Source: Alphaproteobacteria bacterium (GTDB lineage: Bacteria; Pseudomonadota; Alphaproteobacteria; Sphingomonadales; Kordiimonadaceae). From it: 64,000 bases of DNA. The notes beneath the pieces were generated by a model. That model worked only from the letters and a program-made list of their open reading frames with translations, searched no databases and had not been told where the DNA came from. Shown here one piece after another: positions 24,736 to 40,162 of this stretch; position 1 is the first letter of the stretch, and every line of letters starts with the position of its first letter. Position numbers and translations under genes: made by a program. The stretch spans positions 1 to 64,000 of the forward strand of contig SBGU01000011.1 of the NCBI GenBank assembly GCA_006226495.1. The letters are read 5' to 3'.

Positions 24736-25566
24736 ATGACCTTTTCAATTAACGTAAACTCCAGTGCCCTTGATGCACTTCGCAACCTGAATGGCACCAG
24801 CAAGCAACTGGAGACCACCCAGACCCACATCAACACGGGTCTCAAGATTTCGTCCGCCAAGGACAATGCCGCCGTCTTCTCGATCGCGCAGAAACTGCGT
24901 GGCGACCTGAAAGGCCTGAACGCTGTTAAACAGTCGCTCGACCGCGGTATCTCCACCGTTGACGTGGCCCTCGCCGCCGCCAGCGCCATCTCCGACCTGC
25001 TCCTTGAAATGAAGGAAAAGGCCGTTGCCGCCGCGGACCAGGGTCTCGACAGCACCAGCCGGACCGCTCTTTCGCAAGACTTTGCAGCGCTTCGCAACCA
25101 GATCACCTCGATCGTGGAAAACGCCGAATTCAACGGCACGAACCTGATCGACGGCGGTACGGACGCGATTGTCGCCATCACCAACGCCGACGCGACCCAG
25201 ACCCTGACGGTTTCGCACCAGGACCTGACCCTCGGCAGCGCGGCGATCCCGATTTCCGCATCGCAGGATATCTCGACCCAGAGCGCAGCCTCGCTGGCTG
25301 TGACGACCCTGGGCTCGGCGATCAACAACCTGAACTCTATCCTGACCCAACTGGGCGCCGGTTCGACCACCCTCGAACAGAACCGCTCCTTCGCCGGCAA
25401 ACTGGCCGACGTGATCGAAGTGGGTATCGGCAACCTTGTCGACGCCGACATGGCCAAGGAAAGTGCGAACTTGCAGGCCCTGCAGGTCAAGCAACAGCTT
25501 GGTATCCAGGCGCTGTCGATCGCCAACCAGTCGCCGCAAGCGATCCTGTCGCTGTTCCAGGGCTAA
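24736..25566 (+). CDS. Flagellin, divergent lone copy
   Basis: 276 residues made of the D0/D1 core only, typical of short alphaproteobacterial flagellins. It keeps the conserved blocks SAKDNAAVFSIAQKLRGDL, ENAEFNGTNLIDGG and the C-terminal QVKQQLGIQALSIANQSPQA. It differs from the three tandem flagellins (starts MTFSINVNSSALDALRNLNG), so it may be a specialised filament segment such as the hook-proximal one, as known for some Caulobacter flagellins. It is placed beside the sugar island and converges with pseC. Confidence 0.95.
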   Translation: MTFSINVNSSALDALRNLNGTSKQLETTQTHINTGLKISSAKDNAAVFSIAQKLRGDLKGLNAVKQSLDRGISTVDVALAAASAISDLLLEMKEKAVAAADQGLDSTSRTALSQDFAALRNQITSIVENAEFNGTNLIDGGTDAIVAITNADATQTLTVSHQDLTLGSAAIPISASQDISTQSAASLAVTTLGSAINNLNSILTQLGAGSTTLEQNRSFAGKLADVIEVGIGNLVDADMAKESANLQALQVKQQLGIQALSIANQSPQAILSLFQG

Positions 25567-25687: not shown

Positions 25688-26881
25688 TCACGCTGAAAGA
25701 ACTGATCCCAGAACCGCCGCCACATGGCGCACATCGTCGTCCGACATGGCTGGGAATATCGGCAGGCTGAGCACCCGCCGGTAATAGGCCGCAGCACCCG
25801 GCAGCGGCAGGTCGCCATAAAGGCCCCGATAATAGGGTTGCCAGGCCACCGGCAGATAATGCACCTGCGTACCGACCCCTTCTGACGCCAGAGCTTTCAT
25901 CACATTCGACCGGTCGCGCCCCAGGGCTTCGAAGTCAATCAGCACCGGATACAGGTGCCAGGCAGACCGGCAGGTCGGCGATTTCGATACCGGCACAAGC
26001 CCTGGCGCAAGCGGTGCCAACAGGTCATCATACATATCGGCAATTTCTGCCCTGCGTGCGACAAACCGGTCCAGCTTGCCAAGCTGGCTAAGCCCCAGCG
26101 CACACTGAAGGTCGGTGGCCCGGTAGTTGTAGGCCAGTTCCTGCATCTCGTAATACCACGGGTTGGCCTCGCCATCGGCGCCAAAGGCCAGTTCCGGGTT
26201 CTGCCAGCCGTTTTCGCCGCGCTCCATGCCGTGGCTGCGCAGGCGTCTGAGCCGCGCGGCTGTTTCGGCGTCACGCGCCGTCACCACCCCGCCCTCGCCC
26301 ATCGCGATCGACTTAACCGGATGCAGGGAAAAACAGCCCAGGTCTTCGAACCGGCCGTCCCCCGGCGCACCGCCATCCAGATAGCTGGCGCCAAGGGCAT
26401 GGCAGCAGTCGCTGACGATCCTGAGGTCATGATTGTCGGCCAGGGCCCGCAGGCCGGCCACGTCACCCGCCTGCCCGTTCATATGTACGGGCAACACGGC
26501 TTTCGCCCGGTTGCCGGCACGGGCAATGGCTTCGGCCAGCGTGTCAGGCGTCATCAGCCCGGTATCGGAGCAAACATCGGCAAATACCACATCGGCCCCA
26601 CACATGCGCACCGCGTTCGCCGTGGCAAGGAAGGTCATGGCCGGCACGATGGCCACATCGCCCGGCCCAACACCGCAGGCCACCAGCGCCAGATGCAGCG
26701 CCGTGGTGCCGTTCGAACAGACCACAGCCTCGGCTGCACCAATCTTTTTGGCAAACGACGCTTCGAATTCCGCCACCTTGGGGCCGCAGGTCAGGGCACC
26801 ATGGCGCAATACATCCACGACCGCGGCGATGTCATCTTCCTCGATCAGGTGCCGGCCATAGGGCAGGAACTGCGCGGGCAT
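25688..26881 (-). CDS. pseC: PseC-like sugar aminotransferase
   Basis: 397 residues, DegT/DnrJ/EryC1 family with PLP. The PLP-binding lysine lies in GCFSLHPVKSIAMGEGG. In the pseudaminic acid pathway PseC puts an amino group at C4 of the PseB product. It begins four bases after pseB, which favours PseC over other sugar aminotransferases. The start is ATG 26881; an upstream in-frame start would overlap pseB. Confidence 0.9.
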   Translation of the reverse strand: MPAQFLPYGRHLIEEDDIAAVVDVLRHGALTCGPKVAEFEASFAKKIGAAEAVVCSNGTTALHLALVACGVGPGDVAIVPAMTFLATANAVRMCGADVVFADVCSDTGLMTPDTLAEAIARAGNRAKAVLPVHMNGQAGDVAGLRALADNHDLRIVSDCCHALGASYLDGGAPGDGRFEDLGCFSLHPVKSIAMGEGGVVTARDAETAARLRRLRSHGMERGENGWQNPELAFGADGEANPWYYEMQELAYNYRATDLQCALGLSQLGKLDRFVARRAEIADMYDDLLAPLAPGLVPVSKSPTCRSAWHLYPVLIDFEALGRDRSNVMKALASEGVGTQVHYLPVAWQPYYRGLYGDLPLPGAAAYYRRVLSLPIFPAMSDDDVRHVAAVLGSVLSA

Positions 26882-26885
26882 GGAG

Positions 26886-27923
26886 TTATTCCCCACCCTC
26901 GGGGATGGTGGCCAGAACGGCACGCAGGTCTTCGACCGTCAGCCAGGTGTCGTTCTTGTCGCTTGTGTATTCGAAGCCCTCAGGCATGGTCGGGTATCCG
27001 TCCTCGACATGGTCGCGCCGGTCCCAGAAGCTCCATTCCGGATCGATGACATAACGGTCGCCCATATCCAGCGTATGGCTGGCGCTGTGTTCCGTGATCA
27101 TGATCTCATGCAGCTTTTCGCCGGGCCGGATGCCGACAATCTTCTGCGTGCTGCCGGGTGCCATGGCTTCCACCAGGTCGACAATGCGCATGGACGGGAT
27201 CTTGGGCACAAAAATCTCGCCGCCCCGCATGATCGGCAGGCACGACAGGGTAAAGGCCACCGCCTGGTCAAGCGTGATCCAGAAACGGGTCATGCGTTCG
27301 TCGGTAACCGGCAGTTCGGTCGCACCGTCTTTCAGAAGACTGCGGAAGAAGGGAATGACACTGCCGCGCGAGCCCAGCACGTTGCCGTAGCGCACCACAC
27401 AGAAGCGGGTGCCAGTGCCGGACGCCAGGGCGTTCGCAGCCACAAAAATCTTGTCGGACGCCAGTTTGCTGGCGCCATACAGGTTGATCGGGTTCACGGC
27501 CTTGTCGGTCGACAGCGCGATCACCTGTTTCACACCCGCCCGGATCGAGGCCTGCACCACGTTTTCGGCGCCGATCACATTGGTGCGGATACATTCAAAC
27601 GGGTTATATTCCGCCAGCGGCACCTGCTTTTGTGCTGCGGCATGCACCACGATATCGACACCGCGCATGGCCATGATCAGGCGGTCCTGGTCGCGCACGT
27701 CGCCGATGAAGAAACGGACACGCTTGCGGTCCTTGGCCTCAATCGAATTCTGCAAAAGGTAATGGTTATATTCACCGCGCGCCAGGATGATCACCCGCCG
27801 GGGCGAATAGTGGGCCAGGATATGCTTCAACAGGGTCTTGCCGAATGACCCGGTGCCGCCCGTGATAAGGATCGATTTCCCGTTCAGGTCCGTCGCCGAA
27901 TGGTCAAAGCTCGCAAATGTCAT
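26886..27923 (-). CDS. pseB: UDP-GlcNAc 4,6-dehydratase (inverting), PseB
   Basis: 345 residues, an extended SDR. NAD-binding motif ITGGTGSFGKTLL is near the N-terminus; the catalytic stretch STDKAVNPINLYGASK supplies Asp-Lys and Tyr-x3-Lys. It performs the first step to pseudaminic acid: dehydration with C5 inversion of UDP-GlcNAc. The start is ATG 27923. Ninety bases separate it from the gene before, enough for its own promoter. Confidence 0.94.
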   Translation of the reverse strand: MTFASFDHSATDLNGKSILITGGTGSFGKTLLKHILAHYSPRRVIILARGEYNHYLLQNSIEAKDRKRVRFFIGDVRDQDRLIMAMRGVDIVVHAAAQKQVPLAEYNPFECIRTNVIGAENVVQASIRAGVKQVIALSTDKAVNPINLYGASKLASDKIFVAANALASGTGTRFCVVRYGNVLGSRGSVIPFFRSLLKDGATELPVTDERMTRFWITLDQAVAFTLSCLPIMRGGEIFVPKIPSMRIVDLVEAMAPGSTQKIVGIRPGEKLHEIMITEHSASHTLDMGDRYVIDPEWSFWDRRDHVEDGYPTMPEGFEYTSDKNDTWLTVEDLRAVLATIPEGGE

Positions 27924-28013: not shown

Positions 28014-30005
28014 TTAGGTGTTGGGGCCCAGCACAATTGCATAGCGGATAACCGGCGCACCCAGCCGTTCCGACGCCCCGAGCGCGGGCCGCACGGAGGT
28101 TTCGTCGCATTCCCGCAGGCTGACGGCAGCCCGCACGAAAAAACTGTCGCCAACCGACTGGCAGCTCAGCATGCCAACCCCGGCTGCATCGGTGCGTTTC
28201 ATTTCAAGCCGTACCCAGCGGTTCACATCACCCAGTTCGATCACACCACCGGTCATGCCCAGCGCGGTCTGTGCCGTCACAAGCCGCGACACAGGCCGGC
28301 CATGGTCGATCTCCAAGAGCCGCCCCTGATGCCACAATTCGTGCCGTTCCAGGGTGTCGCTGCCGTTGTGGCAGGCAAAATACAGGCTTTCCTGATCAAA
28401 AGCACGCGGGTTCAGGGTCACATGCCCGATTCTGAGCGTGCCATCGACGGGGCAATCCCACAAAGGCGCATAGGCAATTTCAACACGGCCAGAATCGACC
28501 TCGAACCTGAGGGTTTTATGCACCTTGCCCATGGCCGTGGGAATATCGGCCGAAATTTCGACGGTCCGCGCATCCGGCAGCCAGCGCCAGGTGGGTGTGC
28601 AGGCGGCAAGGTCGGTCACCTTTGCGCTGTTGTGCGGCTCGAAAATCAGGTGGCCGGTGTAAAAATCGGCGCCAAACAGGATGTCCCGGTAAAAGCCGTG
28701 CGCCAAGGTACCCACAAGGCCATCCGGTCCCGGGCTGCCGGTAATCTGTTGCCCCGCCGGCCCAAAACCGAAGGACTGGATGACAAGACCCCTGAACAGC
28801 TTCAGCATCAGGTGAAATTTTGGTGTCTCGATCATCAGGTAGCGGCGGCTGAGGGTTACCTGGATATCGTCCGGCAAGGACGCTTCGGCCTCCGATATGA
28901 ATGCAGGGAGCGCCACCGGCGTTTGTGCGCCCAGCATCTTCAGCCAGCGCTTTTCGGTGATATGAGTGCGGAAATCGCTGGCCCACAACAGGCACAAATC
29001 ACGCCATTCGACCTCGCCAACCTCCGCGCGCGCCTTCAGGGCCTCGTAATGCCGCCAGCAATATGTATTGAGGCTGAGATCGTCCCGCCCGGTCACCCCC
29101 CAGCGGGTCAAGTTATATTTACGCTGCTTTTTCACCGGCACCGGCACCGAGGGGCATTCGAGCCTGAGGCGCGGGCCATCCGGGTCCAAAAGTGCCAGCA
29201 CGTCGGACGGAACACCCAGCCGGATGTCGCCCATGCGGCTAAGGGCCGTCAGCAGCACGCGAATACGCTCGAATTCCGAAACACCCGCGATGGCGGCTTC
29301 GGTCGCAAAACGCCCCGGGCGAAAATCGAAGATTTCGGCATCGTTGGTGTAAAGTGGCAGGGCGCGCGCGCCATTGCCCAGTTGGTCGGTCAGGAACTCG
29401 ACATAATCTTCGGGGTCCAGTTCACCATGAACATAGCGCTGGAATTTCTGGAACGAAATGGCGTCGGACCAGATGACCGGAATCTCGCTGCCGTCCGCAC
29501 CCGCAATCATCTGCGGCGCCAGTGCCATATCGGCCGGCCATTCGGCATGGTGGCTCGCGGGTTCGGCCCAGTCCATGATCAGCGCCTCGAAACCGAGGCC
29601 GCGATAGATGGGCACCAGTCCCGGCGCATAGGCCTGTTCGTTCACCAGCGCAATGCGCGGCCGCACGCCCAGGATTTCTTCATAGTCCCTGAGACCGTAT
29701 TCAAAGTTCCGCCGCGTGATATCGGGTGGCACCAGGGGGGCGATCATCTGCACAAAACCACTGGCGATCAGCTCAATCCGGCCTTCGCGGATCAGCTCGG
29801 CCAGGCGCTTTATCCATTCGGGATCAATGGCTTGAACGGTTTTCAGGGTAAAGGACGTTATCTCGACGCCCAGCGGGAAGCCGCTTTCTGCAAGCCGCAG
29901 CAGGGGCCAGTAACAGCGTTCGATGACGGTAGGCCGCGCCTCTTCCTCGATCGAGGAAAAGGCCAGGTTCAGGTGGAATGCCGTATAGAGAACCGGTGCT
30001 GCCAT
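28014..30005 (-). CDS. GH57-family glycoside hydrolase/transferase-like protein
   Basis: 663 residues. The N-terminal ~330 residues form a GH57 barrel: the conserved Glu region reads ALVNEQAYAPG and the conserved Asp region YTNDAEIFDFRPGRF. The rest is a beta-rich C-terminal domain. GH57 enzymes act on alpha-glucans or alpha-galactosides, but a role inside a sugar-synthesis island is unexplained; trimming or transferring a glycan is possible. The start is ATG 30005, 19 bases after the ATP-grasp stop. Confidence 0.82.
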   Translation of the reverse strand: MAAPVLYTAFHLNLAFSSIEEEARPTVIERCYWPLLRLAESGFPLGVEITSFTLKTVQAIDPEWIKRLAELIREGRIELIASGFVQMIAPLVPPDITRRNFEYGLRDYEEILGVRPRIALVNEQAYAPGLVPIYRGLGFEALIMDWAEPASHHAEWPADMALAPQMIAGADGSEIPVIWSDAISFQKFQRYVHGELDPEDYVEFLTDQLGNGARALPLYTNDAEIFDFRPGRFATEAAIAGVSEFERIRVLLTALSRMGDIRLGVPSDVLALLDPDGPRLRLECPSVPVPVKKQRKYNLTRWGVTGRDDLSLNTYCWRHYEALKARAEVGEVEWRDLCLLWASDFRTHITEKRWLKMLGAQTPVALPAFISEAEASLPDDIQVTLSRRYLMIETPKFHLMLKLFRGLVIQSFGFGPAGQQITGSPGPDGLVGTLAHGFYRDILFGADFYTGHLIFEPHNSAKVTDLAACTPTWRWLPDARTVEISADIPTAMGKVHKTLRFEVDSGRVEIAYAPLWDCPVDGTLRIGHVTLNPRAFDQESLYFACHNGSDTLERHELWHQGRLLEIDHGRPVSRLVTAQTALGMTGGVIELGDVNRWVRLEMKRTDAAGVGMLSCQSVGDSFFVRAAVSLRECDETSVRPALGASERLGAPVIRYAIVLGPNT

Positions 30006-30024
30006 GGGCGCCGATCTTACTGTG

Positions 30025-31251
30025 CTATTCGGCAGATTCCACTTCAAACTGAATGCGGGCTGCACAATCTTCGGCGCGGACAGTTGCCTCTTCGTAGGTT
30101 TCGCCCTCCGCCATCACGGTACCCGCGCGCGCACCGTGGCTTTCGATGGCGCCCTGCAGGTCCCCAGGCTTCCGGTAGACCAGCAGTTCATGCACATAGT
30201 CGAGCGCTTCCACCTCCGCGGCACCATGCACCGCGACCACCCTGCCCTTTGGCGGAAAGAAATAGCGCACACCAAGGTAACGCTGGCGTGTCGGCTGCAG
30301 CCGTTCCGGGTCTACCCTGTGTCCAAGGCTCAGGTCGATGACCGCGCCCACAAGATCGACGCCATAGGCAAAGGGAATATGGTGGGTGGCCAGATAATTG
30401 CCCGACAGGCGGCCGGCCAGTTCGATGATCGCGGGTTCGCCCTCGGGCCCCAAGACGATATCGGCTTTCACCACACCCCAGGTCAGGCCCAGCGCATTGG
30501 CGCCGGCTTCGATAACCGCGCGGATTTTTTCCTGCATGTCGGCGCCGAAGCGCGACGGCAAGGTACCGCCGTCCTCGACGATATAGGGTTTGGTCTTGGG
30601 CAGGTTCGAATAGTTGCGGTCGGCATAGGCCACACAGTGGTAGGTGCCATCCACGAACATGCCTTCGACCGACAATTGCGGCCCGGCATAAAAATCCTCG
30701 ACCAGCAACAGGCCGTTCGCGCACGCCGCCATGGCGTGGCCAAAGGCCCAGTCGAGATCGGTATCTTTTTCGAGATACAAGACACCTTTTGACCCACGGC
30801 CGTCTGACGGCTTCAGGATCACCGGGAACTTCAGCGCCGCGCAGGCCGCCTTCAGGGCCGCCGGTGTGCGTACTTCGCAGAAGGCTGGCGTTGCCACCCC
30901 GGCCTGGTCGAAGGCGCGTTTCATGGCGCCCTTGTTGGTCAGCCGCTGTACGGCATCGGCGGGCGCACCGGGCAGGCCCAGCATTTCCGCGACCTTGGCC
31001 ACCGTATAGGGCACGTCGTTCGCAATGGTCATCACACCATGGACGGGGTGTGTTTTGGCAAATTCGGCCACAACGGCGCAGGTCTCGGCCATATCGCGGG
31101 TGCTGGCGATCAGCTTGTGGTCGGCAAATTCGAAGGCGGGGGCGCCCGCGTCCATGTCGGTGCCCACAACGGTCAGGCCCTTGGCTTTCGCAAGCTTGTA
31201 GGCCGGCACCTGTTCAAGGCCAGCACCGATAATCAGCAGGGTTTCAGGCAT
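30025..31251 (-). CDS. ATP-grasp ligase, substrate unknown
   Basis: 408 residues with the order pre-ATP-grasp domain (1-110, LLIIGAGLEQVPAYKLAKAK), ATP-grasp (about 115-310, FPVILKPSDGRGSKGV and AIIELAGRLSGN), and a C-terminal part like carbamoyl-phosphate-synthase or PurK-type ligases. Such enzymes join a carboxylate to an amine or another nucleophile through an acyl phosphate. In this island it might attach an amino acid or acid to a sugar amine. It overlaps the dehydrogenase gene by 8 bases. Confidence 0.85.
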   Translation of the reverse strand: MPETLLIIGAGLEQVPAYKLAKAKGLTVVGTDMDAGAPAFEFADHKLIASTRDMAETCAVVAEFAKTHPVHGVMTIANDVPYTVAKVAEMLGLPGAPADAVQRLTNKGAMKRAFDQAGVATPAFCEVRTPAALKAACAALKFPVILKPSDGRGSKGVLYLEKDTDLDWAFGHAMAACANGLLLVEDFYAGPQLSVEGMFVDGTYHCVAYADRNYSNLPKTKPYIVEDGGTLPSRFGADMQEKIRAVIEAGANALGLTWGVVKADIVLGPEGEPAIIELAGRLSGNYLATHHIPFAYGVDLVGAVIDLSLGHRVDPERLQPTRQRYLGVRYFFPPKGRVVAVHGAAEVEALDYVHELLVYRKPGDLQGAIESHGARAGTVMAEGETYEEATVRAEDCAARIQFEVESAE

Positions 31252-32416
31252 GTTCGCCCCGCCAGACCAGATCGAAAAGGCCGCGCACGTCCGCGGGCGT
31301 CACCGCAATCACATTGGTGCGAATGGCGCCGATTTCCATGGCGTCGTCGGTCAGCATATCCAGATCGCTTTCCGGCACTTCATAGCTTGCAAGCCGAAGG
31401 TCGATACCGAACTTTTCCGCCCAGGCAGTGTAGGTGCCGATCACGGCCGCGGCCGCCGTGTCCGGCGACTTGACCGTGTGGCCCATCAGCGCCGCGACCT
31501 GCATATATTTGTCGCCAACATGGGCGCGGTTGAACCAGATGGCCGGGCGTGTGCACAGGGCGACCGCGCGGCCATGCTGGATGTCATATCGGCCAGACAG
31601 CGGGTGGCTCATGGCATGCGCCAGGTTCACGTCTACAAGGCCGATGGACCGGCCCGCCAGTGACGCGCCCCAGGCCATGCGACCCTTGGCCTCCAGATCG
31701 TCCGGCGCGTCAAAACAGCGTTCCAGGTTGGCGATGATATACTTCAGCGCGCTCAGGCCATAAAACTCTGAATGCAAAGTGCTTTTGCCCGACGTGAAGC
31801 CTTCTATCGCCTGTCCGAACGCATCAAACCCGGTGACAGCAATCTGTTCAGGCGGCATCAGCGCCAGCAATTCCGGGTCAAGGATCGCGAGGTCGGGGTA
31901 CAGGTGCGGGCTGCCCATGCCCTTTTTCATACGGGTGACCGCATGGGTGATCACGGCATAGGGCGTGGCCTCGGACCCGGCGCCAGACGTGGTCGGCACC
32001 GCGACCAGCTTGGTCACCCGCCGTTCGATCTTGCGCGCCTTCTGGCCCGGCGCGTTGATATAGTCCCAACTACCGCCGCCATTGTCCACGAGCAGCGCAA
32101 CCATCTTGGCGATATCGATGCTGCTGCCACCACCAAGGCCCATAATGCAATCGGCGCCAAACGCGCGGCAGGCATCGGCAATTTCATCGACTTCGACATT
32201 GGTCGGATTGGTGTTCACACCCCGGTGGATATGCAGCGCAATGTCGTTGGCGGCAGAAACATCTGCCAGCCGGTCCAGAACACCCGCGCGCGCCATGGCC
32301 GAATGGCCAGTCACGACAAACAGGCGTTTGACCGCGCCGGCCATCAGCTCGGGAAACCGGCGGTAGCCGCCGGCTTCGATCACCAGCTTAGTGGGATAAT
32401 AGCTCTGGGAAGTCAC
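31244..32416 (-). CDS. Iron-containing alcohol dehydrogenase with altered metal site
   Basis: 390 residues, type III (Fe-ADH) fold: GGGSSIDIAKM nucleotide motif near 95-105 and PTTSGAGSEATPYAV near 141-155. Of the four metal ligands Asp-His-His-His, D198, H267 and H281 are present but the second is Gln (GFDAFGQAIEG, Q202). It may bind a different metal or work differently. The start is GTG 32416 with GAGGTGG before it, overlapping the transketolase gene by 29 bases. Substrate unknown, probably a sugar or sugar phosphate. Confidence 0.85.
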   Translation of the reverse strand: MTSQSYYPTKLVIEAGGYRRFPELMAGAVKRLFVVTGHSAMARAGVLDRLADVSAANDIALHIHRGVNTNPTNVEVDEIADACRAFGADCIMGLGGGSSIDIAKMVALLVDNGGGSWDYINAPGQKARKIERRVTKLVAVPTTSGAGSEATPYAVITHAVTRMKKGMGSPHLYPDLAILDPELLALMPPEQIAVTGFDAFGQAIEGFTSGKSTLHSEFYGLSALKYIIANLERCFDAPDDLEAKGRMAWGASLAGRSIGLVDVNLAHAMSHPLSGRYDIQHGRAVALCTRPAIWFNRAHVGDKYMQVAALMGHTVKSPDTAAAAVIGTYTAWAEKFGIDLRLASYEVPESDLDMLTDDAMEIGAIRTNVIAVTPADVRGLFDLVWRGEHA

Positions 32417-33341
32417 GCGCCACCTCTTTCACACGCTTCACAACCGCGTCGGCGTCCATTTCATATTTGCGGAACAGGTCTGCGGGCGGTCCGCACTCAG
32501 CAAAATGCGGCCCCAGGCCCAGCCGGACGATGCGCTTGGGCGCATGTTCGCTGAACAGTTCGGCCAATATGCCGCCGAGGCCACCCTGTTTCGAATGATC
32601 CTCAAGGGTTACGACAAAGCTGGTGCCGTCAAACGCAGCCATCAGGGCCGTTTCATCGACGCCCGCCAGGGTGCTGACGTTTACCACGCGGGGGTCGAAG
32701 CCGTCCGCGGCCAGCGCCTCGGCTGCCTTCAGCGCCCGTTCGGCCATCACGCCATTTGTTGCAATTGCAACACCTTTGCCCGCGCGCACGACCGACGGAC
32801 AGCCGGCCTTGAAGCGGTAATCCGGCCCATGCACATTCGGCACACCGCTTTTGCCGGACTTGATGATCACCGGTCCCTGATGCGCAATCGCCCAGTCGAC
32901 CATCTGCGCCATCTCTATGGAATCTGCGGGGTGCAGCAGCACCAGGTTCGGGATCGTGCGGAAAATCGCGACGTCTTCGGTCAACTGGTGGGTGACCCCG
33001 TCCGCGCCGGTATCAAGGCCATGATGGCTGAGCACGATTTTGACGTTCAGGTTCGGGTATGCGACCGCGTTGCGCACCTGATCGAGGGCGCGCATGGCAA
33101 TGAACATGCTGTAGCTGTTCACAAACGGGATCAGGCCCATGGTCGCCATGCCGGCGGCGGCGGTGACCATATCCTGTTCGGCGATCCCGAAAGAAAAGGC
33201 GCGGTCCGGGAAGCGGGCGGCGAACTTGTCGGCCAATGTTGCCTCGCGGGAATCCGTATCCAGCGATACGATGGCCGGGTTGCTTTCGGCATGCTCGATC
33301 AGCCGTTCGACATAGACCTTGCGCAGGTTGAACCTATCCAT
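32388..33341 (-). CDS. Transketolase, C-terminal subunit (pair 1)
   Basis: 317 residues covering the pyrimidine-binding and C-terminal domains. The cofactor-activating Glu is in FSFGIAEQDM. It pairs with the gene at 33334, which it overlaps by 8 bases, to form a split transketolase that moves two-carbon units between sugars. The start is ATG 33341. A housekeeping transketolase is normally a single chain, so this split pair looks dedicated to the island. Confidence 0.9.
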   Translation of the reverse strand: MDRFNLRKVYVERLIEHAESNPAIVSLDTDSREATLADKFAARFPDRAFSFGIAEQDMVTAAAGMATMGLIPFVNSYSMFIAMRALDQVRNAVAYPNLNVKIVLSHHGLDTGADGVTHQLTEDVAIFRTIPNLVLLHPADSIEMAQMVDWAIAHQGPVIIKSGKSGVPNVHGPDYRFKAGCPSVVRAGKGVAIATNGVMAERALKAAEALAADGFDPRVVNVSTLAGVDETALMAAFDGTSFVVTLEDHSKQGGLGGILAELFSEHAPKRIVRLGLGPHFAECGPPADLFRKYEMDADAVVKRVKEVARDFPELLSH

Positions 33342-34188
33342 GCTGCACCCCCAGGTCCGCGAGCGCACGTTCGAGGTAGCCCTGATCGAACTTTGGACCA
33401 CCCGTATGCCACAGGTTGTCGCCTTCCATGAAGCTGACCCCCTTGCCCTTGACCGTGTTGGCAATCATCAGCTTCGGTTTGTCGGGCTCGAAGGCCGCCA
33501 TACAGTCGGCCAGCGCGCCGAAATCATGGCCGTCCACCGCCTGCACATCCCAGCCGAAGGCGCGCCATTTGTCGGCCAGCGGTTCCAGTTCCATGACATC
33601 ATGGCTGGAACGGTCACCCTGGAACACATTGCGGTCGATGATGTTGATGACATTCGAAAGCTTGTAATGGCCCGCGGTCATCGCCGCTTCCCACACCTGG
33701 CCTTCCTGCTGTTCGCCGTCACCCAGAATGCAGAAAAACCTGAGGTCATTCAGGCCCTTGTAACGCGCAGCCAGCGCCATACCGTTGGCCGCGCTCAGGC
33801 CCATGCCCAGGCTGCCGCTGGTGAAATCGATGGCCGGGATGGTGTCATATTCCGGGTGCGTCTGCAGCCGGGTCTCGAAGCCCCGGAAACCCATCAGCTC
33901 GTTTTCCGACAGCCAGCCAAGCTTGGCAAAAATGGAATAATAGGCCGGGGCCGCCTGCCCCTTGGACAGGATCAGCCGGTCGCGGTCGGCATCGCGGCAA
34001 TCGGCGCGGTTGATGTGCATTTCATGGAAATAGAGCCACACCAGTACATCGACGATCGAAAGCGTGCTGCCCGGGTTGCCCGACCCCGCATGCTGGATCA
34101 TGCGCACACTGTCGATGCGCACGATGCGGGCGAGTTCCGCCAGTTCCGCGGCCTTTGCCGCCGATATGGAGCGGGCCTGCCGCATCAT
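33334..34188 (-). CDS. Transketolase, N-terminal subunit (pair 1), His-to-Asn variant
   Basis: 284 residues, the TPP-binding domain: LGDGEQQEGQVWEAAMTAGH supplies the GDG...magnesium/TPP motif. In the substrate-channel motif normally written SGHPG, the His is Asn (SGNPGST, N38). That His takes part in catalysis in known transketolases, so this pair may have a different substrate or reaction. The ATG overlaps the KdsA-like stop as ATGATGA. Confidence 0.88.
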   Translation of the reverse strand: MMRQARSISAAKAAELAELARIVRIDSVRMIQHAGSGNPGSTLSIVDVLVWLYFHEMHINRADCRDADRDRLILSKGQAAPAYYSIFAKLGWLSENELMGFRGFETRLQTHPEYDTIPAIDFTSGSLGMGLSAANGMALAARYKGLNDLRFFCILGDGEQQEGQVWEAAMTAGHYKLSNVINIIDRNVFQGDRSSHDVMELEPLADKWRAFGWDVQAVDGHDFGALADCMAAFEPDKPKLMIANTVKGKGVSFMEGDNLWHTGGPKFDQGYLERALADLGVQHG

Positions 34189-35048
34189 GCCAGGCGCCCG
34201 GAGACGGCAGCATCCACGGCCACCAGGTCCTTCAGCACATCCTCGACGTCCTTGAGCGCCAGGGTGCCCGCGCCGTCACTCAGCGCCTTGTCAGGGTCCG
34301 GATGCACTTCGATAAACACACCATCAATGCCGTTCGCGGCAGCACTGCGCGCCAGCGGGCGAATGAATTCCCGGTGCTTGAGCCCAGTGCCGCTGGAAAT
34401 CAGGTCGTGGCCATGCACGGTGTGCGAGGCATCGAAAATCACCGGCTTGCCGAAGCTGGACATGATCTGCAGGCCGCGCATGTCGACAATCATGGTCTGG
34501 TAGCCGAACATATAACCCCGGTCGGTGACCATGGTGTTCTCGTAACCATCGTCAGTGAGGCGCGAGATGACATTGTTCATCTCCCACGGCGCCGTGAACT
34601 GGCCTTTTTTGATATTGACCGGTTTGCCGGTAGCGGCCGCCGCCTTGATCAGGTCGATCTGCTTGGACAGGAGCGCCGGGATCTGCAGGAGATCCAGCAC
34701 TTCGGCGGCTTCTTCGCACTGGCCGGGTTCATGCACGTCGCTGGTGGCGCTGACGCCTGCGACAGCTTTCACATGCTTCAGCACATCCAGGCCGCTGTCG
34801 ACACCGGGGCCACGGTACGAACCCTTGATGGTCTTGTTGGCCTTGTCGTAGCTGGCCTTGAACAGGTACGTCAGGCCAAGGCTGTCGGTCACGCGCTTCA
34901 CTTCGGTGGCGATCTCGGCGCACAGGCCCTTGTCTTCAACCACACAGGGGCCGGCGATCACCATCAGCGGCCTGCCGCCACCGATGACGGCATTGCCGCA
35001 CTGTATCTCTTTGATATGGCTGCGAAACTTACGGATGGACATGGTCAT
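34185..35048 (-). CDS. KdsA-family ulosonate synthase with altered substrate motif
   Basis: 287 residues, same length and fold as KDO-8-phosphate synthase, which joins PEP to arabinose-5-phosphate. C35 in IAGPCVVED marks the metal-dependent type. The arabinose-phosphate motif KANRSS is KANKTI here (69-74), and the GGRR loop near the C-terminus is also changed (HDLISSGTGLKHREF). I therefore read it as a paralogue using another aldose. It overlaps both neighbours, a transketolase and a dehydrogenase, which could make and process that aldose. Confidence 0.85.
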   Translation of the reverse strand: MTMSIRKFRSHIKEIQCGNAVIGGGRPLMVIAGPCVVEDKGLCAEIATEVKRVTDSLGLTYLFKASYDKANKTIKGSYRGPGVDSGLDVLKHVKAVAGVSATSDVHEPGQCEEAAEVLDLLQIPALLSKQIDLIKAAAATGKPVNIKKGQFTAPWEMNNVISRLTDDGYENTMVTDRGYMFGYQTMIVDMRGLQIMSSFGKPVIFDASHTVHGHDLISSGTGLKHREFIRPLARSAAANGIDGVFIEVHPDPDKALSDGAGTLALKDVEDVLKDLVAVDAAVSGRLA

Positions 35049-36235
35049 TCTCCGTCGATGATCTGGTCGACGATGGGTTTGAGCGTTTGGGCATCAAACT
35101 CCACCGGATGTTGTTTGAGCGGGCGAAACTTGAAGCGCATGATGCTGTCGATCAGGCGCGGGGCAAGCCCGTCCGAGGCGGCATCACCAATGATGTCGCG
35201 CACGGTTTTCTTCAGGTCCACAGACGCAATCAAGCCCTCCAGCGCATCGACAAAATGGGTCGCGGCTGCGGTCGGGCTGTCGAAGCCCTCTGCACCACAT
35301 ACGTCTTTCGCCAGGCGAGCAAGGCTTTCCGGCGCATGCGGGATGGTCGCGCGCAAAACCGGCACGGTGCTGACGGTGACACCCAGGCCATGCGGAATGT
35401 GGGTCAGTGCGCCTAAAGGTTCGGCAATGGCGTGCGCCGTGGTGGTGCCCCGGTGCGAAATCGCCATGCCGGCCAGGGTGGCGGCAAAAGCCATCTGCTG
35501 GCGCGCTTCCAGGTTCTGGCCGTCTGCATAGGCGACGGGCAGCCATTTCATGACCCGTTTCATGGCTTCGATGCCGAACAGTTCGGCCATCGGCGCAACC
35601 TTCGAGATATTGATCGTGGCTTCAAGGGCATGGGCGAAAGCATCCATGCCGGTCGCAGCCGTCAGGTTTTTGGGCATCGAAGCGGTGAGCACCGGGTCCA
35701 CCAGCGCAACCTTCGGGAAAATCGCCGGTTCCTGGATCGTGCCCTTCTGCTGGGTGTCTTCCTTGGTCAGCACCGCATAGGGCGTGACCTCGGAGCCCGT
35801 GCCCGACGTGGTCGGCAGCGCGATGACCGGCAGCACAGGCGCCAGAAGCGGCAGCGGCGGCCGGTTCGACAGATTGGCATACATCCAGATGCCTTCGGAC
35901 TGGGTGAGCGAAATGGCGAAGGCTTTTGCGAGATCGATGGCGCTGCCGCCACCAAAGCCCACGACCACTTCGAAACCCTCCAGCTTCCGGAGGTCAGCGG
36001 TCGCGGCGTCAATGAAGTCACAGGTCGGCTCCGGGTCTTTCTGTTCCCAGCCGGTGACCACCAATTTCGCAGCCTGCAGGTCCGCGATAATGCCCGCAGC
36101 CTGCGCCTTCAGGTCCGCAGGGTAAACGAACAGCACTCGCGCGCCATAACCGGCACAAAGTTCCGGCAGCCGCCTGGCGGCACCTTCTTCGACAAAAACC
36201 TTGGTCGGCTGGAAAAATCCGAACGCTTCAACCAA
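35045..36235 (-). CDS. Iron-containing alcohol dehydrogenase (second copy)
   Basis: 396 residues, Fe-ADH fold with GGGSAIDLAKA and PTTSGTGSEVTPYAV. All four metal ligands are intact: Asp and His in GMDAFAHALEA, His in HAIAEPLG and His in HIPHGLG. It is clearly diverged from the copy at 31244, so the two likely act at different steps. The start is TTG 36235, supported by GGTAGGAG seven bases before it. It overlaps the KdsA-like gene by 4 bases. Confidence 0.88.
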   Translation of the reverse strand: MVEAFGFFQPTKVFVEEGAARRLPELCAGYGARVLFVYPADLKAQAAGIIADLQAAKLVVTGWEQKDPEPTCDFIDAATADLRKLEGFEVVVGFGGGSAIDLAKAFAISLTQSEGIWMYANLSNRPPLPLLAPVLPVIALPTTSGTGSEVTPYAVLTKEDTQQKGTIQEPAIFPKVALVDPVLTASMPKNLTAATGMDAFAHALEATINISKVAPMAELFGIEAMKRVMKWLPVAYADGQNLEARQQMAFAATLAGMAISHRGTTTAHAIAEPLGALTHIPHGLGVTVSTVPVLRATIPHAPESLARLAKDVCGAEGFDSPTAAATHFVDALEGLIASVDLKKTVRDIIGDAASDGLAPRLIDSIMRFKFRPLKQHPVEFDAQTLKPIVDQIIDGE

Positions 36236-36249
36236 TTTGATACTCCTAC

Positions 36250-36990
36250 CTAGAAATAGAGGCCGCCGTTGACATTGATCGTTTGGGCGGTGACATAACT
36301 TGATCGGTCGCTGGCCAGAAACACAGCCGCGTTCGCGATTTCATCGGTCGACCCCATACGCTTCAGAGGCACGCTGTCCGCCGCCGCCTTCACCGCCGGG
36401 TTCGACAGCGCGCTTGCCGCCATTTCGGAAGCCACAAGGCCGGCCGCCAGCGTATTGCTGCGCACCCCGTCCTTGGCGAGGAAACGGGCGATCACCTGCC
36501 CCAGCGAAATGAGGCCCGCCTTCGATGCGGCATAATGGGCGGTACGCGGCCCGCCATACTGGCCGGAAACCGAGCCCATATGGATGACACTGCCGTTCCC
36601 GGAAGCACGCAACAGCGCCAGTGCTTCCTGCGTAACCACAAACGGGCCCTTCAGGTTGACCGCCATGATCTCGTCCCAGTCGCCGTCGGTGATCTGGTCG
36701 AAGTCCGTGGGTTTGTTGATGCCGGCATTGTTCACCAGCACATCCAGCCGGCCTTCGGCCTTGCCAACCGCATCCAGCGCCGCGCGCACGGCCAATCGGT
36801 CGCGCACGTCTGCTTTCAGGGCACGGCTTTCATCAAGGCCCGCCAGCGCGCAGGTTTCTTTTGCTGCCGCTTCATTGCCGGCATAGGTGAAATAGACGGT
36901 CGCGCCTTCACGCACGAAGGCCTGCACCACAGCCCGGCCAATGCCGCGGCTGCCACCGGTTACAAGGGCAATCTTGTCCTTCAGTTCCAT
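36250..36990 (-). CDS. Short-chain dehydrogenase/reductase (FabG-like)
   Basis: 246 residues, classical SDR. NADP motif TGGSRGIG, NNAG, and the catalytic triad Ser-Tyr-Lys in GSVSGQYGGPRTAHYAASK. FabG proteins of this shape reduce keto groups on fatty acids or small molecules; within this island a sugar keto group is the likely target. It is six bases from the transketolase subunit before it. Confidence 0.88.
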   Translation of the reverse strand: MELKDKIALVTGGSRGIGRAVVQAFVREGATVYFTYAGNEAAAKETCALAGLDESRALKADVRDRLAVRAALDAVGKAEGRLDVLVNNAGINKPTDFDQITDGDWDEIMAVNLKGPFVVTQEALALLRASGNGSVIHMGSVSGQYGGPRTAHYAASKAGLISLGQVIARFLAKDGVRSNTLAAGLVASEMAASALSNPAVKAAADSVPLKRMGSTDEIANAAVFLASDRSSYVTAQTINVNGGLYF

Positions 36991-36995
36991 CGGGA

Positions 36996-37958
36996 TCAGC
37001 CTTTCACCAGCGCACGCGCGGCGGCGGCAATGTCTTCCACCGCAATGCCAAAGGCCGCCGGCAGGTTGGTGTGTTCACCTGATTTGCCGAACCGGTCCCT
37101 AACCGCAACAAATCGCATGCGTGCCGGGTGACGTTCGGCCAGGCATTCGGCAACGGCGCTGCCAAGGCCACCAAAGACGTTATGGTCTTCAGCGGTGACA
37201 ATACCGCCGGTTTCTGTGGCTGCGGCCACCAGTTCGTCGGCATCGATGGGTTTGATCGACGCCATATTGACGACACGGGCCGAGATACCTTCGCCTGCCA
37301 GCATGTCCGCGGCCTTGAGTGCGCGGGCGACCGCAACACCGGTTCCGACGAGCGTGACATCCGTACCTTCGCGAAGGCGCTTGGCCTTGCCGATTTTGAA
37401 CGGTGCATCCGCCTCGGTAACAACCGGGGTCGGGCTGCGGCCGATACGCATATAAACCGGGCCTTCATGTTCCAGGATCGCCTGGAAGGCCTGCATGAAT
37501 TCGTTGGCATCTGCCGGGCTGATGACCGTGACACCCGGGATGGCGCGCATGGTGGCCAGGTCTTCAAGCATCTGGGCGGTGGCACCGTCCGGCCCGACAT
37601 CAAGCCCGATGTGCGAACAGCACAGCTTCACATTGCGGTTCGGGTAAGCAATGGCGGTGCGGAACTGTTCGTGCGCCCGCATGCAGCCAAAGGCCGCGAA
37701 GGTGGAAACAACGGGGATCAGGCCCGTATCAGCCATGCCGCCGGCGGCGGCCATCATATTCTGTTCGGCAATACCGAACTGCACAACACGATCCGGGTAC
37801 GCACCCACAAGCGGCTTGGCGCCGGTGCCGCCCGCCACGTCGGCGTCCAACAGCACCCAGTCCTTGCGCACATTGGCCATATGCACGAGCACCCGGCCAA
37901 AGGCATCGCGCACCGAAACGTCGGCCCCTATGGGCCAAAATTGCAGGTCAGCCATCAT
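36996..37958 (-). CDS. Transketolase, C-terminal subunit (pair 2)
   Basis: 320 residues with the activating Glu in VQFGIAEQNMMAAAGG and a normal C-terminal domain. It overlaps its N-terminal partner as ATGATGA. Sequence differs clearly from pair 1, so the two pairs are not a recent duplication. Confidence 0.9.
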   Translation of the reverse strand: MMADLQFWPIGADVSVRDAFGRVLVHMANVRKDWVLLDADVAGGTGAKPLVGAYPDRVVQFGIAEQNMMAAAGGMADTGLIPVVSTFAAFGCMRAHEQFRTAIAYPNRNVKLCCSHIGLDVGPDGATAQMLEDLATMRAIPGVTVISPADANEFMQAFQAILEHEGPVYMRIGRSPTPVVTEADAPFKIGKAKRLREGTDVTLVGTGVAVARALKAADMLAGEGISARVVNMASIKPIDADELVAAATETGGIVTAEDHNVFGGLGSAVAECLAERHPARMRFVAVRDRFGKSGEHTNLPAAFGIAVEDIAAAARALVKG

Positions 37959-38812
37959 GCAGCCTCCAACTCGGCGAGGGCTTTTTCAAGCTCCTCGTCT
38001 TTCATGGTCACACTGCCGTGCCAGTAGAGAACATTTTCCATGAAGCTGACGCCCTTGCCCTTGACCGTGTCGGCAAAGATGAAGGTCGGGCGGCCTTTTT
38101 CCGACCGCGCGGTCGCGAGCGCCGACTGGATAGCGCCCACATCATGGCCGTCAATTTTCAGGGTATGCCAGCCGAACTGTCCCACCTTTGCCGCCACATC
38201 GCCCATATCAAGCTGGGTGGCCACAGGCGCGTCGCCCTGCAGCTTGTTGGAGTCGTAAATGGCGACCAGATTGTCCATCTTCTTGTGGCCTGCCGACATG
38301 ACAGCTTCCCAGGTATTGCCTTCCTGCATGTCGCCGTCGCCCAAAATCACATAGGTGCGGAAATCAAGGCCCTGCAGCTTGGCGCCGATCGCCATGCCAA
38401 GCCCCTGGCTCAGCCCCATGCCGAGCGAACCCGACGGTGCGTCGACACCCGGGATACGCACATCAGGGTGGCCTTCCATGAAACCTTCCAGCTTCCTGAG
38501 CTTCAGCGCTTCTTCCATCGGGAAATAACCCCTCAGCGCCAGGGCGACATAAAGCGCCGGGCAGGCATGACCCTTCGACAGTACGAAGCGGTCGCGCGTG
38601 CGCAACGCCGGTTTTGCGGGGTCGATGTTCATTTCGTCGAAATACAGCACCGACAGCATGTCGGCGATTGACAGGCTGCCGCCCGGATGGCCGGAACGCG
38701 CGGCATAAACGGCCTTCAGGCACTGGCGCCGGATCTCGGTCGCGCGCGCTGCCAGTTCCTTCACGGAAAGGGCATTGTGCGGCAGGTCCGGGCGCATGGA
38801 ATTATCGGTCAT
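37955..38812 (-). CDS. Transketolase, N-terminal subunit (pair 2)
   Basis: 285 residues, TPP-binding domain with LGDGDMQEGNTWEAVMSAGH. Unlike pair 1 the SGHPGGS motif keeps its His (H42). It is the first gene of the 38812-to-28014 run. The start is ATG 38812; no strong ribosome site is visible, and ATG 38797 is an alternative. The 147-base gap upstream should hold a promoter but none is clear. Confidence 0.88.
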   Translation of the reverse strand: MTDNSMRPDLPHNALSVKELAARATEIRRQCLKAVYAARSGHPGGSLSIADMLSVLYFDEMNIDPAKPALRTRDRFVLSKGHACPALYVALALRGYFPMEEALKLRKLEGFMEGHPDVRIPGVDAPSGSLGMGLSQGLGMAIGAKLQGLDFRTYVILGDGDMQEGNTWEAVMSAGHKKMDNLVAIYDSNKLQGDAPVATQLDMGDVAAKVGQFGWHTLKIDGHDVGAIQSALATARSEKGRPTFIFADTVKGKGVSFMENVLYWHGSVTMKDEELEKALAELEAA

Positions 38813-38959
38813 GGCAAGGAAATCCCGTTTGATCAGGACGGCGGGCAGCGGCCACGGCAGCAAGCCGGCGCATTGGCCCGCACGTCAGCTTCTGAGAAGC
38901 CTGTATAACCCTGCCCAGCGAAAAAAGATACCGTGTTTCAACATCATAGGCTGCGGCGG

Positions 38960-40162
38960 TCATGCGCTGGCCCCCACCGGTTTGTGGGCCAACACCAGCC
39001 CGGCGGTCACCTTCGCAGGCAGGGTCTCCGGCAGGTTGTCGCGGCTACCCAGATGCAGGAAAGCATGGCGCTGTTTCACCCACACATCGTCGATGACAAA
39101 ACCACCGGCTTCCACATCGGCCAGAAGGTCGGGCAGCAGATATTCTTTTTCATGCCAGGGCACCAGCGGCATGCCCATCGGATGCGCCATCAGAAGCGGC
39201 ACCTCGAGAAGCAGGCGCCCGCCCGGCTTCAGGTTCCTGTCGGTACATTCAAAGAACCGTTCGGGATGCCCCAGATGTTCAAGCGTATGCAGCGAAATGA
39301 CGGCGTCGAAAGCGCCCTCTTCCAGGAAGGTTTCGGCGTCGCCCAACCGGTAATCCAGCCCTGCAATATGGCCATTGTCGGCGCGGGCCTGCGCGATATT
39401 GTCGGGGTCGAGGTCCACACCCACCGCTTCGGCGCAGAATTCGCCAAGGCAGCGCACGCCCTGCCCCTTGCCGCAGGCAATGTCCAGCACCCGCCAGTCG
39501 TCTTTCAGATACTGGCCGAGGAAACGGTAGGACGATGCCGGGAAATTCCAGGCAAAATGGGTCTGGTTCTCGCTCAGGATCTTGCGGTATTTAGCCCGGA
39601 TCGCATGGGCGCGTTCGGGTGTGTATGCCGGACCACCGTCCACGGCAACGACCGGGAACCGGTCCGGATGGCGTTCCATATAGACCCAGGGCGAAAAGCG
39701 GAAGGATGCCTGGTCGCGGCCTTCGGGCAGCGCGTCGATTTCCTCCACGGCGCGCGCTAGGGCATCGGCGGTGCAGACATCACCCGCCAGCGCATAATTA
39801 TAGTCCGCCGGCAAGGTGACATAGGCGGCACCTGCGACCCTCAACGCCGAAACCATACGGGCAACCTGATCGGTATCCAGATAGAATTGCCTGAGCAGCA
39901 CCCGCACAACGATGTCGGCATCATGGGCGCGCGCCGCCATCAACAGCCGGTGCCCGACATTGAATTCGTCGCCCCGATGGCAGGGCACATCCCATTTGGC
40001 GGCCAGGTCTTCAAGCGCGGTCGATGCAGGCTGGTCGGGGCACGCCAGCGCCACCGCGTCAAACAGCCCGCTTTCGCGGCAGATGCCGATGGCATAATCG
40101 TCCGGCTCGGCCGAACGACCGATATCGCCCGCAGTACACTGGATCAGGGCAACAATCTTCAT
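38960..40162 (-). CDS. Nucleotidyltransferase-like/SAM methyltransferase fusion
   Basis: 400 residues. The N-terminal ~210 resemble SpsF-type cytidylyltransferases but lack the substrate-binding SRLPxK motif, so this half may be inactive. The C-terminal ~180 are a class I methyltransferase: VLDIACGKGQGV for SAM, FDAVISLHTLEHLGHPERFF and LKPGGRLLLEVPLL. Methylating a sugar acid is a reasonable guess. The ATG 40162 overlaps the previous stop by 4 bases. I do not recall a described protein with this pairing. Confidence 0.75.
   Translation of the reverse strand: MKIVALIQCTAGDIGRSAEPDDYAIGICRESGLFDAVALACPDQPASTALEDLAAKWDVPCHRGDEFNVGHRLLMAARAHDADIVVRVLLRQFYLDTDQVARMVSALRVAGAAYVTLPADYNYALAGDVCTADALARAVEEIDALPEGRDQASFRFSPWVYMERHPDRFPVVAVDGGPAYTPERAHAIRAKYRKILSENQTHFAWNFPASSYRFLGQYLKDDWRVLDIACGKGQGVRCLGEFCAEAVGVDLDPDNIAQARADNGHIAGLDYRLGDAETFLEEGAFDAVISLHTLEHLGHPERFFECTDRNLKPGGRLLLEVPLLMAHPMGMPLVPWHEKEYLLPDLLADVEAGGFVIDDVWVKQRHAFLHLGSRDNLPETLPAKVTAGLVLAHKPVGASA

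Follow-up and report, generated by a model that had tools for sequence, protein, structure and literature searches.

What does a packed ten-gene run in the genome of an alphaproteobacterium of the Kordiimonadaceae (assembly GCA_006226495.1) make? The run lies on the minus strand, from 38815 down to 28014, of the window, i.e., the 64,000-nucleotide stretch at positions 1 to 64,000 of contig SBGU01000011.1 that was analysed here. An earlier note on this DNA had proposed a pathway to an unusual keto-acid sugar, in which transketolases make an aldose phosphate, a KdsA-like enzyme extends it with phosphoenolpyruvate (PEP), and dehydrogenases and an ATP-grasp enzyme tailor it. All the proteins that it named at 28014-38812 (two split transketolases, a KdsA-family synthase, two iron-containing alcohol dehydrogenases (Fe-ADHs), a short-chain dehydrogenase/reductase (SDR), an ATP-grasp ligase and a GH57 enzyme) were found by Pfam. 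What holds of its proposal is a multi-enzyme route that is tied to FlmG-type flagellin glycosylation and was not found described in the literature searched; a keto-acid sugar as a product in its own right was not supported. With slightly less than even confidence, our analysis suggests that the cassette is what gets exchanged within a flagellin-glycosylation island of the sfmABCDE kind, and that it builds a nitrogen-free polyhydroxylated decoration on a nonulosonic acid, not a separate keto sugar activated with cytidine monophosphate (CMP).

Gene order, conservation and exchange of modules

Read along the minus strand from 45856 to 25688, the island encodes an FlmG-like glycosyltransferase, a short NeuB, a cytidylyltransferase/PseG-like fusion, a pyruvyl-transferase-family protein, a methyltransferase, the two halves of a first split transketolase (TKN1 and TKC1, together TK1), the SDR, a first Fe-ADH (FeADH-A), the KdsA paralogue (KDSX), a second split transketolase (TKN2 and TKC2, together TK2), a second Fe-ADH (FeADH-B), the ATP-grasp ligase, the GH57 enzyme, PseB and PseC; a plus-strand flagellin gene lies beyond the PseC end. 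The cassette is flanked by the FlmG, NeuB and cytidylyltransferase genes on one side and by pseB, pseC and flagellin on the other, and the whole unit (about 25.7 to 45.9 kb, pseC to flmG) is larger than the ten-gene run. From TKN1 to GH57, six of the nine junctions overlap (by 4, 4, 4, 8, 29 and 8 bases), in line with the many overlaps noted earlier, and the other three are gaps of 5, 14 and 25 bases, lengths that depend on the start codons that we picked, including that of TKN1.

The genes stay together in relatives, a point on which the earlier note had made its idea depend. KDSX (at least 74% identity) is present in four of the 29 family genomes searched, the window's own, G015, G021 and G022, all of them among the 19 of its own genus, and the order TKN1-TKC1-SDR-FeADH-A-KDSX-TKN2-TKC2-FeADH-B-ATP-grasp-GH57 is kept in all four (in G022 a contig end cuts GH57). 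Because the same ten genes stand in the same order in G015, G021 and G022, the grouping is not a matter of chance; the loci L035 (OFTM305) and L036 (MH1_Bin8) were taken as contig C47 of G021 and contig C13 of G015 and counted once. As to whether the module tracks FlmG-like genes, it does not do so in any simple way: a FlmG match was found in 27 of the 29 family genomes and the module in four.

Searches of 385 class genomes gave no further close KDSX (21 genomes matched; the best of the others at 44-47% and none above 47%) and no close FeADH-A (28 genomes matched; the others at 40% at most), and the short loci of these matches (about 3-4 kb) held no other cassette genes. In the 78 non-orthologue loci among the 80 named loci out of 543 relatives, many of them short, no transketolase, ATP-grasp or GH57 match to the window's proteins was found. 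A GH57 of the window's kind occurs in 10 of the 385 class genomes and the short NeuB in 10 of 372, and these are the same ten genomes. Six of the nine that are not the window's own have a split transketolase with an SDR, two (G144 and G042) have an SDR with an acetolactate-synthase-like enzyme in place of the transketolase (its ilvB-type form in L204 and L212), and in the last, G396, the contig is too short to tell the transketolase or ATP-grasp content; an ATP-grasp gene was seen in seven of the nine. In a phylum sample of 339 genomes, four had the short NeuB, one of them outside the class (G698, 64%). Its island reads PseB-PseC-cytidylyltransferase-NeuB-PseG-like-two methyltransferase-type genes-DXS-like-SDR-ATP-grasp-GH57, with upstream genes 29-30% identical to flagellin.

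Sister islands were read in all 27 family genomes with a FlmG match (the window, L174-L193 and six further genomes), gene labels being best BLAST matches; PseB was located in 27 of the 29 genomes. Eighteen of the 27 islands have the short NeuB and GH57, and nine have PseI-type genes instead (G024, G016, G018, G004, G005, G002, G003, G008 and G028). The constant parts are PseB/C, the short NeuB, the cytidylyltransferase, GH57 and, nearly always, the ATP-grasp ligase, which adjoins GH57 in 13 of the 17 GH57 islands with a continuing contig and is one gene off in four. The variable parts are largely enzymes that form carbon-carbon bonds beside an aldehyde or ketone and then reduce. The four islands with KDSX are called type A. 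In the single type B island (G012), TK1, SDR and FeADH-A are followed by an opposite-strand zinc alcohol dehydrogenase and DXS-like gene, then by ATP-grasp and GH57, so that the putative DXS-like and zinc enzymes occupy the place of KDSX-TK2-FeADH-B; the DXS-like enzyme scores 467.5 bits to TIGR00204 (cut-off 465.95) and is 38% identical to that of G698. TK1 and SDR without an Fe-ADH are found in G010, G011, G007 and G027, and with another SDR in G026 and G017. Type D islands (G013, G020, G009 and G025) have no transketolase; they have an FkbM methyltransferase, an ATP-grasp gene and a GFO/IDH oxidoreductase, the last between ATP-grasp and GH57. G023 has a second NeuB and an Fe-ADH, and two islands are cut by contig ends (G019, with SDR, ATP-grasp and GH57 seen, and G006, with GH57 only). 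In total, TK1 and SDR are present in 11 of the 18 GH57 islands, and seven of these 11 islands with TK1, SDR, ATP-grasp and GH57 lack KDSX, TK2 and FeADH-B.

The PseI-type flagellin island of G018 (L221:5115-19901) has its own split transketolase (41-44%) and SDR (33%), next to acyl-activating (acyl-AMP-ligase-type), LuxE-like and two radical-SAM genes, and the same contig has a PseH-like match of 90.1 bits. Because this PseI-type island holds its own split transketolase and SDR, the pair is also a movable unit, and the island is possibly another decoration cassette. A sulfotransferase-family gene was seen in L207 (by Pfam) and in L208, L209 and L211 (BLAST matches at 50-53%), a hint at sulfated versions.

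Residues of the KdsA paralogue and of its partner enzymes

KDSX scores 328.6 bits to NF003543 (cut-off 242) and 306.9 bits to TIGR01362 (cut-off 314), and its best sequence match in the PDB is 6mdy. It was compared with 124 other KdsA-family rows from the fetched loci; its five orthologue rows represent three genomes (L006; L007 and L035; L008 and L036), the duplicate of the window's own row (L005) being excluded. Eighteen columns with at least 85% conservation across the 124 rows are changed in KDSX, and the residues that we take to be on the PEP and metal sides are not among them. Nine positions are invariant in all 124 rows and changed in KDSX and its orthologues, i.e., R72, R129, T131, K163, L186, T208, Q212, P214 and G224, which are replaced by K, K, I, R, M, S, H, H/N and K/S/N; several of them are on the sugar-phosphate side. 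The changed substrate motif pointed out earlier is borne out: ordinary KdsA has KANRSS where KDSX has KANKTI, and at position 72 all 124 comparison rows have R, against K in KDSX and its orthologue rows. RQTD becomes KQID, and the QxPGG loop is altered. In the alignment to Aquifex KdsA (1fwn), K72 and K129 correspond to R49 and R106, which we take to hold the pentose phosphate. Passages of PMC6650799 back this in part and give Arg58/Asn57 and Phe112 (Neisseria numbering) as acceptor-side contacts; the available passages of PMC3052366 contain nothing on acceptor residues. Of the suggestion that the KdsA-like enzyme extends an aldose phosphate with PEP, a KDSX step stands, by its residues probably on an acceptor other than that of ordinary KdsA. 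The four paralogues group together in a quick tree of 128 rows (Shimodaira-Hasegawa-like approximate likelihood ratio test 100). The branch that leads to them measures 1.48 changes per column, and because it is so long the exact place of the group is unsure.

Both transketolase pairs of the window have the thiamine diphosphate (TPP) motif GDG and the catalytic-Glu motif GIAEQ. At a position that is His in the solved split transketolase 6yaj and Gln in the human enzyme, TKC1 and its 16 island relatives carry Ala; the His is retained in TKC2 and in the L221 copy, and TKC2 has IKSGK for MRIGR. The ligands of the compared positions are those that we presume from yeast transketolase. The nearest solved structures to the ATP-grasp ligase by sequence are 4dim and 3vot (L-amino acid ligase). 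For GH57, a model predicted from 13 rows (mean predicted local distance difference test score 83.8) matched by E-value best the GH57 4-alpha-glucanotransferase 1k1x (2.3e-21, template-modelling (TM) score 0.43); GH38 mannosidases came next, and their TM scores were higher (about 0.6). E121 and D220, which we take to be catalytic, are invariant across the 13 rows.

Two side observations concern the Fe-ADHs. FeADH-B and three orthologues do not match the D..H metal-site pattern, with Gln at the place of His by eye, and where FeADH-B reads HAMSHP, FeADH-A and its four orthologues read HAIAEP, with Glu in place of the His.

The proposed decoration and its alternatives

The island encodes more than a standard pseudaminic acid route needs, as the earlier note had remarked, and parts of that route are divergent. 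PseB and PseC are above their cut-offs; the short NeuB reaches 158.5 bits against an NnaB cut-off of 399.65 and 151.6 bits against a PseI cut-off of 340.25. No PseI, PseF or PseG equivalog is above cut-off in the window's island, and no PseH in the whole genome, PseH being the only one sought genome-wide (best 28 of 93.1 bits); by contrast, PseI, PseG and PseF are all above their cut-offs in L186. With the Caulobacter pathway of PseB-C-H-G-I-F and FlmG, as described in passages of PMC7591256, the window shares PseB, PseC, an FlmG-type transferase and a flagellin target, whereas it differs by divergent or fused versions of the NeuB, cytidylyltransferase and PseG-like parts, by the lack of a PseH above cut-off and by the extra cassette.

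A closer likeness is offered by sfmABCDE of Shewanella oneidensis MR-1, which in the available passages of PMC3765264 comprises a NeuB-like protein of 290 amino acids (aa), an ilvB-type TPP enzyme (581 aa), an SDR of the 3-oxoacyl-ACP-reductase (FabG) type (255 aa), a methyltransferase (395 aa) and an ATP-grasp protein (412 aa); its authors note PseB and PseC and no clear PseH, G, I or F. The flagellin there carries a 274 Da sugar, read as mono-N-acetyl pseudaminic acid, and an added group of 236, 250 or 264 Da that was judged nitrogen-free and O-methylated (PMC3765264). The ion formulae given there lead to C9H16O7 plus 0-2 CH2 for the outer group, which, if it is an acyl group, would be a saturated polyhydroxy acid, C9H18O8, and as a glycoside could be hexose plus glycerol. 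Loss of sfmA, B, C or D gave flagellin of unmodified size (PMC3765264). The window likewise has a short NeuB (285 against 290 aa), a TPP enzyme with a FabG-type SDR, a methyltransferase, an ATP-grasp enzyme and PseB/PseC, and G042 (L212) holds the same five protein kinds as sfmABCDE. The differences are that the TPP enzyme of the window is a split transketolase, in two pairs, that Fe-ADHs, a KdsA paralogue and GH57 are added, and that the transferase is FlmG-like, whereas the S. oneidensis authors suggest Maf proteins (PMC3765264). Systems of the sfm kind are already known but little studied, and the variant with split transketolase, Fe-ADHs, KdsA paralogue and GH57 is new; by titles and the beginnings of abstracts, no transketolase/KdsA cassette in flagellin glycosylation was found among the matches listed from the open-access literature.

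On the observed gene content, order, linkage, module swapping and altered KDSX residues, we base a scheme whose substrates, step order, amide linkage and enzyme activities are all inferred from sequence. PseB and PseC would make a UDP-4-amino sugar, and the cassette would assemble a polyhydroxylated chain free of nitrogen, forming its carbon-carbon bonds step by step: TK1 would extend an aldehyde by a two-carbon ketol and the SDR would reduce the ketone, FeADH-A would make (or consume) a terminal aldehyde, KDSX would condense PEP with that aldehyde, and TK2 and FeADH-B would add and reduce one more unit. We place the aldehyde to be extended by KDSX or by the DXS-like enzyme at FeADH-A because types A and B have FeADH-A in common and differ after it. 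The ATP-grasp ligase, of the L-amino-acid-ligase type, is proposed to cap the PseC amine because no other scanned gene of the island encodes a candidate for amide formation; most likely it would join the chain, as a carboxylic acid, to this free amine, the site that PseH would acetylate. The divergent PseG-like/NeuB/cytidylyltransferase set and FlmG would then bring the nonulosonic acid with its decoration onto flagellin, and GH57 would be a core member, perhaps supplying or transferring a sugar unit. In its full form the proposal is a chain assembly line that would lengthen an aldehyde-acid, by two or three carbons at a time, into a long polyhydroxy acid by means of KDSX acting on a new acceptor, two split transketolases and two Fe-ADHs; the ATP-grasp ligase would hang the acid on the flagellin nonulosonic acid, and different bacteria would swap modules to change the chain. 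This full form we consider doubtful.

Several points weigh against the decoration reading. The likeness to sfmABCDE is one of protein kinds and lengths as described in passages of PMC3765264, and by its formula the 236 Da group could equally be hexose plus glycerol. A group made by the TPP enzyme and SDR and attached by SfmE predicts like mutants, so that the milder effect of losing sfmE (a smaller shift, motile cells and part of the modification kept; PMC3765264) than of losing sfmA-D is awkward. The ligase type does not follow the cassette type, because in G027 an ATP-grasp enzyme 59% identical to the window's sits in a far smaller cassette, without FeADH-A, KDSX, TK2 and FeADH-B; in G144 no ATP-grasp gene was found within the 15 kb read. 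The DXS-like gene of G012 is on the opposite strand, and the PF04230 (pyruvyl-transferase-family) gene that travels with KDSX could point to a second residue. Finally, PseH is above cut-off in only one of the 29 family genomes, PseI-type ones included, so that its absence from the window's genome proves little; as a clean discriminator of islands it failed.

The nearest alternative to the decoration keeps the core of the earlier idea: from an aldose (phosphate) supplied by the transketolases, KDSX would form a separate 3-deoxy-ulosonic acid, to be tailored, activated with CMP and attached as a second sugar. KDSX indeed scores as a KdsA-family protein with its presumed PEP- and metal-side residues unchanged, and in each of the four genomes it is accompanied by the PF04230 gene and by a methyltransferase that bears a nucleotidyltransferase-like remnant. 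On the other side, no sugar-phosphate isomerase, phosphatase or second credible cytidylyltransferase was found among the island genes scanned, seven of the 11 core islands do without KDSX, and sfmABCDE, as described in the available part of its paper, makes a nitrogen-free decoration on pseudaminic acid. The missing isomerase contrasts with three of six annotated plasmid kdsA stretches, where a KpsF/GutQ isomerase gene adjoins kdsA or is one gene off. These points also speak against the separate keto-acid sugar of the earlier note, and we regard such a second sugar as unlikely. In the synthesis of yersiniose, YerE and YerF add a two-carbon branch and reduce it, and PseB yields a 4-keto sugar; by this logic the TPP enzyme would branch the keto sugar nucleotide and the SDR would reduce it, giving a branched nonulosonic acid. 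The recurring pair of a TPP enzyme (split transketolase, acetolactate-synthase-like or, in G698, DXS-like) with an SDR fits, and so would the loss of the whole modification in the reported sfmB and sfmC mutants, but the family islands keep PseC, which would use up the 4-keto group, the S. oneidensis authors' formula makes the inner sugar there mono-N-acetyl pseudaminic acid, and the ATP-grasp ligase and PEP condensation would be left without a role, which makes this version quite unlikely.

GH57 might instead transfer a glucosyl-type unit, the outer group being a glycoside (e.g., hexose plus glycerol), with the ATP-grasp ligase adding something else. The glucanotransferase match of the predicted model and the invariant E121 and D220 are consistent with this, as are the C9H16O7 formula and the partial modification of the sfmE mutant; it gives no role to the transketolases, KDSX and Fe-ADHs, there is no mention of GH57 in the available passages of the S. 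oneidensis paper (PMC3765264), and we consider it improbable. That KDSX and the transketolases serve 3-deoxy-D-manno-octulosonic acid (Kdo)/lipopolysaccharide or pentose metabolism and are merely located in the island is most improbable. By its NF003543 score KDSX would be named kdsA, and its presumed PEP- and metal-side residues are those of Kdo-8-phosphate synthase. However, its acceptor motifs are altered (nine invariant residues lost), it forms its own tree group, it has no isomerase partner among the scanned island genes and it was found in no other of the 385 class genomes. A KdsA-family match of some kind is found in all 29 family genomes; the window's genome has an ordinary KdsA (C47:17764-18576, 42% identity), G015 and G021 have both kinds, and in the 83%-complete G022 only KDSX was seen. 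This housekeeping role was dropped for its missing partner genes, as was an aminoshikimate reading. The aminoshikimate pathway has a split transketolase and a 3-deoxy-D-arabino-heptulosonate 7-phosphate (DAHP) synthase, and a split transketolase also stands beside a PEP-condensing synthase in the window, but no dehydroquinate-synthase or shikimate genes are among the island genes scanned. In the KdnA/KdnB route to 8-amino-Kdo an Fe-ADH acts on the product of the KdsA pathway, whereas the window's island has no aminotransferase besides PseC.

If the decoration reading is true, flagella of various alphaproteobacteria would bear sugar-acid decorations that belong to a rapidly changing family and are made by relatives of transketolase, DXS, acetolactate synthase and KdsA put to new use, and each island type would predict a different flagellin mass. 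The KdsA family would gain a new acceptor, names such as 'kdsA' or 'transketolase' would mislead in such islands, and a genetic basis would be suggested for the 236-264 Da Shewanella flagellin group, which is unsolved in the available passages of PMC3765264.

Island features and minor observations

Table 1. Genes of the island and neighbouring flagellin genes in the window, with the basis of each assignment.
Feature	Position	Strand	Basis
FlmG-like tetratricopeptide repeat (TPR) glycosyltransferase (flagellin modification)	44120..45856	-	TPR families; match at E<=1e-60 in 27/29 family genomes
Short NeuB (285 aa), divergent and lacking the C-terminal region of PseI-type rows	43266..44123	-	PF03102; alignment
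Cytidylyltransferase domain + C-terminal half read as PseG-like (fusion)	41491..43269	-	PF02348 81.2 bits, N-terminal part
Polysaccharide pyruvyl transferase family protein	40159..41388	-	PF04230; 62% identity in L174-L176; travels with KDSX
Methyltransferase + N-terminal region, at best a degenerate nucleotidyltransferase	38960..40162	-	PF08241
TKN1, split transketolase 1, N half	37955..38815	-	PF00456; GDG motif kept
TKC1, split transketolase 1, C half	36996..37958	-	PF02779/PF02780; 274.6 bits to 6yaj
SDR, FabG-like ketone reductase	36250..36990	-	PF00106/PF13561; top NCBIfam NF004198, under its cut-off
FeADH-A	35045..36235	-	PF00465; 73% identity in G012
KDSX, KdsA paralogue, PEP-condensing synthase with altered acceptor side	34185..35048	-	DAHP_synth_1/KdsA; NF003543, residues, tree
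TKN2, split transketolase 2, N half	33334..34188	-	PF00456; KGQA for KGHA
TKC2, split transketolase 2, C half	32388..33341	-	PF02779/PF02780
FeADH-B	31244..32416	-	PF00465
ATP-grasp ligase with L-amino-acid-ligase C-terminal domain (LAL_C2)	30025..31251	-	PF18603, PF02655
GH57-family enzyme	28014..29999	-	PF03065
PseB	26886..27923	-	TIGR03589 496.5 bits, cut-off 407.75
PseC	25688..26881	-	TIGR03588 450.1 bits, cut-off 423.5
Flagellin	24736..25566	+	Translation
Three further flagellins	start 47313, 48352, 49442	+	Translations; Flagellin_N/C in the two scanned, 48352 and 49442

The label FlmG is taken over from the earlier note as our assumption and not from a FlmG model. We read the C-terminal half of the cytidylyltransferase fusion as PseG-like; Pfam gives no hit to this half at E<=1, and the fusion has no TIGR03584 (PseF) or TIGR03590 (PseG) match at E<=1e-5. 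In L237, the genes on either side of NeuB are a stand-alone cytidylyltransferase and one with 23% identity to PseG. For the N-terminal 200 aa of the methyltransferase, Pfam likewise gives no hit up to an E-value of 1, and the L174 copy reaches 16 bits to CTP_transf_3, under the cut-off of 22.6.

The three other type A islands have an Asparagine-synthase/GATase-like gene upstream of TKN1 (L174:9652-11037, L175:8517-9911 and L176:11625-13010), in the place of which the window has only about 145 bases.

Plasmid searches matched 33 records for FeADH-A and 89 for KDSX, all below 60% identity among the matches listed (25 each). The transketolase/Fe-ADH cassette was in none of six annotated plasmid kdsA stretches, and in three of the six a KpsF/GutQ isomerase gene adjoins kdsA or is one gene off. 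A kdsA with a KpsF/GutQ isomerase gene was seen on a Gram-positive plasmid (pML2P1 of Leuconostoc mesenteroides, L168:13950-15741), and related kdsA matches (including H36 and H43) on plasmid records of Leuconostoc citreum and Bacillus velezensis.

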